Assembly: GCF_000187465.1 (NCBI RefSeq)
Contig: NZ_GL732439.1
Span: 1,077,518 to 1,141,517, forward strand
Length of the DNA: 64,000 bases
Reading direction: 5' to 3'
Origin: Streptococcus infantis ATCC 700779
GTDB lineage: Bacteria > Bacillota > Bacilli > Lactobacillales > Streptococcaceae
Below the pieces are notes generated by a model that worked only from the letters and a program-made list of their open reading frames with translations, was not told the origin of the DNA and ran no database searches. Below are positions 14,695 to 21,450 of this stretch, in pieces. Positions within the stretch are counted from its first letter, which is position 1; the number at the start of each line of letters is the position of its first letter. A program made the position numbers and the translations under genes.

Positions 14695-17600
14695 TTAATC
14701 TTCTTTTCTTTTTTGAAGAAATAGAGCAGACATTGCTAATGTAAGACCAGCTAGGAAGAGGTGTTCAGTTGTGCCTTCACCAGTTTCAGGAAGTTTAGAC
14801 TGATCTGCTTCTTTTTGTGCTGCTTGCATAGCAGGTGTTGGTGTAAGAGCAGGTTTCTGATCAAGTTTTTCTGCAACTGGACTTGTCTGATTGTCTCCTG
14901 CACCTAATGTTTCTTTATACTCAGGAACATCATTCTTAGCAGCTTCAACCCAATTAACTCCTCCCTTGAACTCTGGGAGCTCATTCTTAGCAGCTTCAAC
15001 CCAATTAGCTCCACCCTTGAATTCTGGGACCTCATTCTTAGCAGCTTCAACCCAATTAACGCCACCCTTGAACTCTGGAATGTCATAAACAGCCACTTCT
15101 GCAACATTAACTCCACCTGTAAATTCAGGAATTTCAACTACTGGTGGTTGCTGTTCTCCCTTACTTGAAAGAACTTCAGGTTCTGGAGTTGGTTTCGGAT
15201 CTGGAGTTGGCTCTGGATCTGGAGTTGGTTTCGGATCTGGAGTTGGCTCTGGATCTGGGGTTGGTTTTGGATCTGGAGTTGGCTCTGGATCTGGAGTTGG
15301 CTCTGGATCTGGAGTTGGTTCTGGATCTGGAGTTGGCTCTGGATCTGGAGTTGGTTTCGGATCTGGGGTTGGCTCTGGATCCGGAGTTGGTTTTGGATCT
15401 GGAGTTGGCTCTGGATCTGGAGTTGGTTTCGGATCTGGAGTTGGTTTCGGATCTGGAATTGGTTCTGGATCTGGAGTTGGCTCTGGATCTGGAGTTGGTT
15501 TCGGATCTGGAGTTGAATCTTTCAATTGATCCAGATACTCTGCAAAGAATGTCACCATTCGATCTGTTAAGAGGTGGTTATCTGTTGCATATTTCATGCT
15601 AGCAATAACGCTTGCCACTTCTTCTTGATTGCTCTTATCAGTCAATTTTTGAGCTTTAGCCAAGGCTGCTTCATATGCACTTGTGTCAAGACCTGCTTCA
15701 GCAACTTGAGGACGAGCAAAGATCAATTCTGCAGCTGATTGATATTGATTACCACCATCTCCATAAGTTCTTGTTCCAGTTAGGACAATCTTCTTAGCTT
15801 TGATAGTCTTACCAAAGTCGATATCTTTTGGTTTGTTATTATCAGCCCAATTAGTTGCATTGAAGGTATGCTCCTTACCTGTTTCATCAGTAACAACAAG
15901 AGTCACATCTCTCAAATTACCATTTGAACCTGAACCGCGTGGAACATAACGGAAGCCTGTAATTTCAGTTGGTTCTTTCAAGACCATTGTTGCTGGTTTA
16001 CCAACATCGCCTCCGCCCCATGATGTATGCCATAGACTAGACAAGTTACCATCAAAGGCATTTTCAAGACCTTCACCAGCCTGAGCAGGAGCTGAAAGAC
16101 TTGCAAAGTCATCTGCTACAAGAGCTGTTTTCTTCATTACTAAAGCATCTTTAAGAGCATTGACCTTATCGATTTCTGCTTTAGCTTCTTCCAGACTAAT
16201 GTCATCATCTGCTTGACTGAGGTTGAAGACTGCTTCTTTTAAAGCATCCATACTTTCTTTGGTGTAGTTAGTCATGGCTACAGTTGGAAGATAATTCTTG
16301 ACAGCATTTTCTGTCATCATCTTACCTGTCAAGACAATCTCTTCAATTTGAAGTCTATCCATGATGAAGTCATTGTAACCACGGAAGTTAGCATTACCAC
16401 CAGAGTCACCACGAGTGTTGCTAGCATTACCTGTAGAGTAGATACCTACCCAAGTATCGCCAGTTTCAGCACCTGTCACAAGGAAGGTCGCACGTTTCGC
16501 TTTTTGAGAATCTGTCCATGAGTTTGGTAATTCATGCATTTCGAGATCGCTTGCTTGGCTACCACGACGGCCAGATTGGAATTCTCCCTTACCTACAACA
16601 AATGCGTAAGTATTATCTGATCCAGCTTCGTAGTCAAAAGTGATACGGTAGGTCTTACCTGCTTCAAAGCGGAAGTTTTGTGGAATTGTTTGGTAAACCA
16701 AGTTACGACGGCTAACAAGACCATTTGTCTTGAGTGACCATTTTCCTTCGATAACGTCATCAACTTTCTTGCCATTCCAATCACGTTGTGTGTATGGACC
16801 ATGTTTTTCAGACAAGTGAGTACGGTTATCTTCAACACCTTCGATTCCACCGATGACAAATGGGAAGATACCTTGTCCGACATTTTCAAAGTCTTGTTTG
16901 AAAACGCCTGTTGCGGTATCATGACCATCACCATACATAGCAGAGTCATTTTCGAAGGTACGGATTTCATCGAAGTAAGTTGCTTCATCTCCTGCTTCAC
17001 GACTCAAGGTCAAAGTTACATTTGATACATCTGAACCTGTTGTGAAGAAGGCATACATGTTTTGGAAGTAACTTCTATCATTAACTGTTGCATTATCAGT
17101 ACGAGTATTATGAGCATAAGCTTTAACGTAGTTAAGGGCCAGTGACTTGTTCGTGTAGTTGGTCACTTCTTTCTCACCAGTGTTAACAGTAATGCTTGCT
17201 TTGGCATCACTACGGTTATCCACACCGACATAGACAGCATATTTAGTATTTGGTTTCAAGCCAGTCAATTTTTGAGTGAGACTAACTTTTTCTTTATTGC
17301 CTTGGATGCGGAGCATTTGGTTTGCACCTTGAGATTTGACAACTGTTGCTTTAGAAGCGTCACCTTCAATCTTCCAATGATCCAAAGATTCACTGTTAAA
17401 TCCTTGGTCATAGATGTGCATTCCTTCACTCCATGACATTTCAGGATTAGTTTGTTTAGAACGATAAAGAACATAAGGTTGATTTGCTAGAAGGTCAAGT
17501 GTAATCTTACCATCTTTGACAGCCACTTCTTTTTCTTCAGTCTTACCTTGGTCTGTTAGTTTGTAAAGGTAAACTTTACCGTTTGCCCAGTCACTAGGAA

Positions 17601-20600: not shown

Positions 20601-21450
20601 TAAGGATTGGATCAAGCTTTCCTTTTGGATAGCCAAACACATGTACCTTATCTCCTGTCTTGACAGTTGATGGTTTATCCGCAACTTCAACTGGAGCATT
20701 TGCAAGTGGACTGCGAAGTTTGACAATAGCTAAGTCATTTTTATAACCTTTTAGGAAGCCTTCACGGTCCCAGTGTTTTACATCATTTTTACTAAACTTA
20801 ACGTCTGGTGCACCTTCATAAGAAACTGTATACACATCTTTATCACTTTCGATGTTGTCTGCTACCTTGCGATTATTGCCATCCGGAACATCCTTGATAA
20901 AGTTATGAGATACTGATAAGACAAGATTTTCTCCAATAACAATACCACTACCAGTACCAGCTTCGCTCTTAATTTCAACAGTCGCACCGTAGTTCAATTC
21001 ACCGTTTTTTGTTTTAGCGACATCTTCTGGAACTAAACTTTTATCTTCTTTTGCTAAATCATCTTTTGAAGCAGAATGTCCACTATCTTCAGCCTTATCG
21101 AGTTTTTCACGCAAATCTTTTGGAAGTTCATTTTCAGTTGCTGAACTTGCTGTAACTTCTTTTTCTTTCTCCAGTAATTCTTCTTCAGTTTTTGGTCCTT
21201 CGGTAACTTCAGGAGAACCATGATCTTCTCCAGGTTTTGGTGCTTCAAAATCATGTCCATTATCATCTTTTGCATTTGCCAGAGCAGCTGCTAAATCGGC
21301 TGGCATATTTGCAGTAGAACCAGTTTGGGCTGTATCTGCCAAAACAGTACTTGTTCCAAAGAATGTAGCACCAATGACAACAGAAGCAACACCTAATGAA
21401 AATTTCCGAATACTATATTTACAACGTTTTTCAAATAACCTTTTATCCAT
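14695..21450 (-). CDS. Giant cell-wall-anchored serine protease / GH101 endo-alpha-N-acetylgalactosaminidase
   Basis: 2251 aa. Residues 1-38 are a YSIRK signal peptide; an acidic linker follows; residues about 145-350 are a trypsin/V8-like serine protease with H182 (LSVSHNF), D239 (KNDLAIVKL) and S310 (GASGGGIF). An E/K/P-rich linker (about 365-410) leads to a LamG-like module (412-600) and the GH101 enzyme, with nucleophile D1051 in [10 protein letters not shown] and acid/base E1083 in [10 protein letters not shown]. That 32-residue spacing matches what I recall for pneumococcal SpGH101. Galactose-binding-like modules follow to about 1760, a CBM32 at about 1780-1912, 19 PTPDPx units, [12 protein letters not shown] repeats, LPETGE (2220) and a KRKED tail. 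GH101 removes core-1 Gal-GalNAc from Ser/Thr of mucins. The pneumococcal enzyme, as I remember it, has no protease domain, so this fusion could strip the sugar and cut the exposed peptide. A cre-like site lies in the leader. Confidence 0.93.
14914..15147 (-). repeat. 51-bp tandem repeats coding [12 protein letters not shown] units (GH101 protein)
   Basis: Five units (the first divergent) of the same 17-aa motif as in the downstream giant protein, placed between the proline rod and the LPETG anchor. The flanking DNA at 15111-15193 is about 95% identical to 6371-6453. Confidence 0.85.
15175..15516 (-). repeat. 19 x 18-bp repeats coding the PTPDPE/K rod
   Basis: 342 bp in phase encode 19 six-residue units, mainly PTPDPE and PTPDPK mixed along the rod, with single STPDPK and PIPDPK variants at the start and PTPEPE at the end. 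It acts as an extended cell-wall spacer and should vary in length between isolates. Confidence 0.9.

Follow-up and report, generated by a model that had tools for sequence, protein, structure and literature searches.

An S1B-type protease module on the SpGH101-family surface enzyme of Streptococcus infantis and on other streptococcal exoenzymes

The protease-GH101 protein and its described relatives

The pneumococcal endo-α-N-acetylgalactosaminidase SpGH101 is given a length of 1767 aa in PMC5753484, and the legend to Figure 2 of a 2025 paper places an extra S1B catalytic domain on the SpGH101 and the ZmpA of commensal strains (PMC12211801). The gene studied here belongs to the same family and lies in a stretch of 64,000 nucleotides of Streptococcus infantis ATCC 700779 (assembly GCF_000187465.1, contig NZ_GL732439.1, positions 1,077,518 to 1,141,517 of the forward strand), hereafter called the window. 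It runs from 14695 to 21450 on the minus strand, as do all the window features given below, and encodes an SpGH101-family enzyme with an N-terminal S1B protease (ORF, Pfam and NCBIfam NF040533). The nearest solved relative of this protease is the trypsin-like domain of the Gemella IgA1 protease, with which it shares about one third of its residues; the main enzyme of the Gemella protein is a zinc protease, unlike the glycosidase of the window protein. The Gemella domain has been proposed to be a pro-enzyme. The S1B glutamyl endopeptidases (V8, Esp, the B. intermedius enzyme and the exfoliative toxins) are also kin by sequence, by fold and by a GIH motif, at about 20% identity. Those are free secreted proteases, whereas the window domain forms an inner part of a larger, anchored enzyme.

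The gene is a single, complete and uninterrupted ATG frame of 2251 aa (ORF listing and translation). Its protease domain (residues 139-355; 20386..21036) was recognised by the Pfam families Trypsin_2 (residues 167-324, E-value 4.8e-14, 53.7 bits against a cut-off of 27.6) and Trypsin (residues 147-335, 1.3e-6), and it is followed by a KE/KP-rich linker (residues 356-410; 20221..20385) containing 12 Glu, 12 Lys and 8 Pro among its 55 residues. The GH101 portion comprises an N-terminal domain (residues 411-593; 19672..20220; PF17995, 6.5e-71), a galactose-mutarotase-like domain (residues 621-873; 18832..19590; PF18080, 6.7e-81), the catalytic domain (residues 874-1164; 17959..18831; PF12905, 9.4e-121), and a region in which Pfam places the GH101 C-terminal domain, domain 5, and the GalBD-like and F5/8C domains (residues 1170-1909; 15724..17943), with the F5/8C match at residues 1790-1909. 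These E-values are far beyond chance, and none of the 11 Pfam matches of the protein is to an M26 family. A YSIRK signal peptide motif (residues 7-32; 21355..21432; PF04650, 3.1e-12; TIGR01168) and an LPETG sortase motif (residues 2220-2224; 14779..14793; NCBIfam and letters), the latter placed after Pro-rich and SIALI-17 repeats, identify a sortase-anchored YSIRK surface protein.

A reading made from the sequence alone had described this gene as one YSIRK-to-LPETG frame in which a complete chymotrypsin-type triad (H182, D239, S310) precedes a GH101 domain with its nucleophile (D1051) and acid/base (E1083), and had stated that the pneumococcal enzyme lacks the protease. All of this held: the named triad letters are correct and the region around them matches S1-type profiles, while D1051 (18298-18300) and E1083 (18202-18204), read at the named positions, stand in 11-residue contexts identical to those of D764 and E796 in the 1767-aa GH101 protein of another locus (L141). 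In pneumococcal numbering, we take D764 and E796 to be the GH101 catalytic nucleophile and acid/base. The L141 gene has the length reported for the pneumococcal one and encodes no trypsin-like domain (Pfam). Pneumococcal SpGH101 (PDB 3ecq) aligns to window residues 41-98 and then straight to residue 382 onward, and is thus without residues 99-381, i.e. the protease block.

The fusion is not new as an architecture: the family model NF040533 spans the protease, and the PMC12211801 legend names the S1B domain, so that it is already in print. The window protein matches NF040533 over the full length of the model, protease included (residues 1-1980 on model positions 1-1961 of 1962; 4083.2 bits against a cut-off of 2900), and positions 164-348 of the model match the protease of a second protein in the window's genome. 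When residues 100-400 were used as the query, the best 120 of 741 matches all carried Trypsin_2 and GH101 (precomputed domains). Within the open-licence literature, no biochemistry on the protease-GH101 fusion and no paper on GH29 or GH33 fusions of the S1B domain was found.

Conservation and predicted structure of the protease domain

Catalytic His182 (20905..20907), Asp239 (20734..20736) and Ser310 (20521..20523), together with His325 (20476..20478), were invariant in 160 GH101-linked copies, a set made up of the window, 39 loci and 120 protein matches, many of them closely alike; it excludes L039, in which the domain is split, and includes L051 by its readable 199 residues. Across 45 copies covering all partner types, H182 was kept in 44 (the remaining row being incomplete, with a gap) and D239, S310 and H325 in 45 each, and the glycines flanking the serine (308 and 311) were kept in all readable copies of the five settings. 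His325 aligns with the GIH-motif His of staphylococcal exfoliative toxin A and corresponds to the S1-pocket His of the GxH motif in glutamyl endopeptidases. The domain is under strong purifying selection: comparison of the window with 38 loci gave dN/dS values of 0.03-0.15 for the protease and of about 0.10 or less for GH101, which are rough since dS was often >1. Pfam, conservation, the predicted model and fold comparison all returned a chymotrypsin-like fold with a His-Asp-Ser triad, and by sequence the S1B members ranked first after the Gemella domain.

Within the N-terminal half, conservation peaks in a segment ahead of the core, residues 139-158 (20977..21036), which exceeds even the protease core. 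In a comparison with 13 divergent loci its mean identity was 98%, versus 69% for residues 159-355, 44% for residues 99-138 and 40% for the linker (356-410), and 44% of its identical residues were specified by another codon. The predicted model has a confidence of <50 for residues 100-152, and the near-invariant segment was not placed. Such an arm ahead of the core could fit an S1B enzyme regulated from its N-terminal side, as judged from conservation and the model.

Partners, lineages and history of the S1B module

A survey of GH101 homologues, as called for by the sequence-only reading, found GH101 in 94 of the 284 genomes of the genus, and a protease domain of the GH101-linked type in 65 of these 94, always on the strand of GH101 and 1404-1779 bp ahead of the GH101 domain; it was absent from the other 29. 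A rigid protease-GH101 unit is ruled out by the variability of this gap. Three of the 65 copies are split between frames (G122, G130 and G209). Frames split within the protease, or between it and GH101, were also seen at L039, L051 and G130 (L148), and may reflect sequencing error or decay. Among 77 named GH101 loci the domain was present in 40, from S. mitis, S. oralis, S. infantis, S. pseudopneumoniae and their kin, and absent from the loci of S. cristatus, S. sinensis, S. suis, Enterococcus and Aerococcus, a few of which start at a contig end.

The S1B domain is a portable module, since its relatives also sit on GH29, GH33 and M26 proteins and on tandem proteins without a glycosidase. A second S1B domain is encoded in the window's own genome, where it accompanies a GH29 fucosidase domain in a YSIRK protein of 2276 aa. 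Of 26 loci not linked to GH101 (8 of which were covered by the Pfam scan), nine combine the domain with GH29, one of them also with GH33, five with M26, and 12 have tandem S1B domains; the tandem and S1B-GH29 proteins thus share the domain family of the window protein and differ in their partners. In the tandem loci the pair is followed by a GH33 sialidase (three), choline-binding repeats (two) or an LPxTG anchor (six, L199 among those with the motif), and in the remaining one, L198, the frame stops soon after the second S1B domain. No glycosidase was detected in the six LPxTG-anchored tandem proteins with the probes used. The sortase-anchored protein of L184 (124-3777, plus strand) has, according to Pfam, no enzyme domain besides its two S1B domains, and its EFKGGVN-type repeats resemble those at the C-terminus of the window protein; L194 (1419-9206, minus strand) joins S1B, a GH29 fucosidase and a GH33 sialidase in one frame of 2595 aa. 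A profile search for free-standing relatives, which scored the 7995 candidates sharing most words, returned 33 proteins at E ≤ 1e-10; many were partial, and none was a named protease. Order-wide, 27 of 395 genomes matched, 24 of them in the window's genus and three, weakly (E-values 1.7e-17 to 7.1e-16), in another family.

A tree of 45 copies separated two types with support of 100/99. Type I comprises the GH29-linked domains and the first domain of the tandem proteins, and type II the GH101-linked, the M26-linked and the second tandem domains; GH101-linked copies clustered with tandem domain 2 (support 99/96, with a long-branch warning on the tree). The GH101, M26, tandem 1 and tandem 2 groups each formed one clade. 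The GH29 group was not resolved as such, needing two changes and appearing as a single clade in 26% of bootstrap trees. Type I was found in 73 and type II in 77 of the 284 genomes (the type II search matched 81, of which G028, G257, G258 and G277 were set aside as weak, E-values 6.8e-7 to 4.4e-6). All 73 type I genomes also carry type II, and 73 of the 77 type II genomes carry type I, the four with type II only being G122, G128, G129 and G157. The split arrangement, with one GH101-linked and one GH29-linked copy, occurs in 61 genomes, the GH29-linked class having been assigned for most rows from how closely the S1B domain matched (68-100% identity), with the partner checked in 9 of 62. G090 has no GH29-linked copy and G172 no GH101-linked copy, but both have a tandem protein, and 10 genomes have a tandem protein and neither linked copy. 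Some genomes fuse the two types in one protein and others distribute them over a GH29 and a GH101 protein, which is Rosetta-stone evidence for their acting together; shared ancestry may also explain the co-occurrence, the counts being taken over related species with kinship ignored. A speculative extension, to which we give a low probability, is that the two types form an obligate pair, one for example clipping and activating the other. They would be borne together by a tandem protein, or separately at the tips of a GH29 fucosidase and of a GH101 O-glycanase, and host glycoproteins would then be exposed to proteolysis and deglycosylation that are turned on jointly.

The protease and GH101 halves have different histories. 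When 78 GH101 sequences (L001 and L051 excluded) were placed on a quick tree, the presence of the protease required three changes. A large mitis/oralis/infantis clade has the protease in 34 of 35 rows, and the protease-free L141 nests inside it, where absence is most simply read, from its position in the tree, as a loss. A second protease-bearing set, from S. infantis and Streptococcus sp., numbers six genes whose divergent GH101 lies near that of Abiotrophia; relative to the window these are 95-98% identical in the protease and only 83-84% in GH101, while L012 displays the reverse pattern (93% in the protease, 99.7% in GH101). Because the identities of the two halves are discordant in these six genes and in L012, recombination between GH101 genes would be the simplest source of the discordance. 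We considered and rejected the idea that the pneumococcal-type gene lost its protease block by excision between repeats: the longest exact repeat shared by the two flanks is 9 bases, a length equalled or exceeded in 420 of 500 codon-shuffled flanks. The nearest GH101 loci to the window gene in the tree were L017, L002 and L012, all from Streptococcus. The GH101 genes of L059 (a Carnobacterium maltaromaticum record) and L072 (an Erysipelotrichaceae metagenome-assembled genome) grouped inside or beside Streptococcus, which may indicate transfer or mislabelled or contaminated assemblies.

The next gene downstream of the GH101 gene, on the same strand, encodes a 2868-aa YSIRK and LPxTG-anchored protein with GH20, GH84 and several F5/8C domains (5956..14562; ORF, Pfam and NCBIfam), which has the N-terminal region (NF040533 positions 1-150) and the SIALI-17 repeats in common with the GH101 protein. 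A terminator-like hairpin lies between the two genes (14604..14621), one of four in the region against 0.5 expected, all of them consensus matches only. This part of the chromosome thus holds two adjacent surface enzymes predicted to degrade host glycans. Elsewhere, L035 of S. cristatus (10001-27571, plus strand) has a GH33 sialidase N-terminal of GH101 (Pfam, applied to L035 only) in a frame of at least 5857 aa, and in L033, L034, L036 and L037 (S. cristatus and S. sinensis) GH101 occupies the same place in the frame as in L035.

A proposed portable pro-enzyme beside the glycosidase, and rival explanations

The explanation we favour, with about an even chance of being right, is that the window protease is a portable pro-enzyme module which, once clipped at its N-terminal side, cuts protein at acidic residues, and which works beside the glycosidase without having been built for GH101. 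The S1B domain, the outermost of the protein, would be a pro-enzyme or a conditionally active protease, and its conserved catalytic machinery suggests that it may be active; the Gemella relative and the near-invariant, unplaced residues 139-158 point to a need for N-terminal processing. Clipping would open the domain, which could then cut nearby protein at Glu or Asp, its natural target probably being a glycoprotein or a surface protein near the cell wall. In the same neighbourhood, the GH101 domain behind it would remove core-1 O-glycans that have already lost their sialic acid, and both enzymes may act on one glycoprotein. Several observations weigh against this explanation. In PMC11970125 the Gemella domain had a blocked S1 pocket and no measurable activity, even when extended N-terminally by about 30 residues, and the authors consider that its function as a protease may have been lost. 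The preference for Glu/Asp is suggested by sequence kinship and one histidine. By fold comparison alone, HtrA-type proteases score level with V8, so that S1B is not singled out, and the predicted model was built on 18 sequences with residues 100-152 unplaced. The 29 of 94 GH101 genomes without the protease also count here, since GH101 therefore does not need the S1B domain.

The sequence-only reading had gone further, proposing a dedicated machine for dismantling O-glycoproteins in which the tethered protease cleaves the peptide that GH101 exposes by removing core-1 glycans, with mucin, the IgA1 hinge and CD43-like proteins as targets. Its starting point stands, as the protease and GH101 do share one chain and one anchor; in addition, several S1B partners (GH101, GH29, GH33 and M26) act on host glycoproteins, and the GH33 sialidase placed N-terminal of GH101 in S. 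cristatus L035 resembles a glycan-trimming helper. What does not stand is the exclusiveness of the pairing, given the S1B domains on GH29, GH33, M26 and tandem proteins, some of the latter anchored and without a glycosidase. The Glu-type specificity would also be a poor fit to the Ser/Thr/Pro-rich stretches bared by GH101, and the discordant histories and variable tether length of the two halves speak against a dedicated design. The IgA1 hinge is disfavoured as a target because the Gemella domain showed no measurable activity and, in PMC9637739, made no contribution to IgA1 cleavage. Tight coupling can be seen as a special case of the portable pro-enzyme, and is less likely than it because the module is reused on other enzymes or on none, the tether is variable and the Gemella relative is inactive; taken by itself we consider it improbable.

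Two further explanations were considered. A module for self-processing or shedding, which would cleave within its own protein or act on adjacent surface proteins (in the Glu-rich N-terminal part or the linker) and so trim or release itself or its partner, would agree with the Glu-rich flanks of the protease (15 of 98 and 12 of 55 residues), with sequence kin that include enzymes activated by N-terminal processing, and with the occurrence of the module on several anchored partners, as expected of a processing device. Self-cleavage at the linker is weakened, however, because the protease-free L141 retains a similar Glu-rich linker (8 of 34 residues); the linker is poorly conserved, and since the module is outermost, a cut there would free the protease and not the glycosidase. 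We regard this explanation, too, as doubtful. Lower still do we rate a pseudo-enzyme, i.e. a trypsin fold turned into a binding or spacer domain: the inactive Gemella relative with its blocked pocket would be a precedent, but every readable copy from the five settings retains the triad, Gly308/Gly311 and the pocket His, which would be unexpected had catalysis been lost.

The role of the trypsin-like domain on surface enzymes of this kind is stated as an open question in PMC11970125. The module described here is carried by at least four kinds of exoenzyme, and its type I form never occurs without type II in the 284 genomes. Natural contrasts are available in the pneumococcal GH101 without S1B and in the tandem proteases without a glycosidase. 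The question thereby moves from what such a domain does for an IgA1 protease or for GH101 to what a pair of proteases does on the surface of a commensal.

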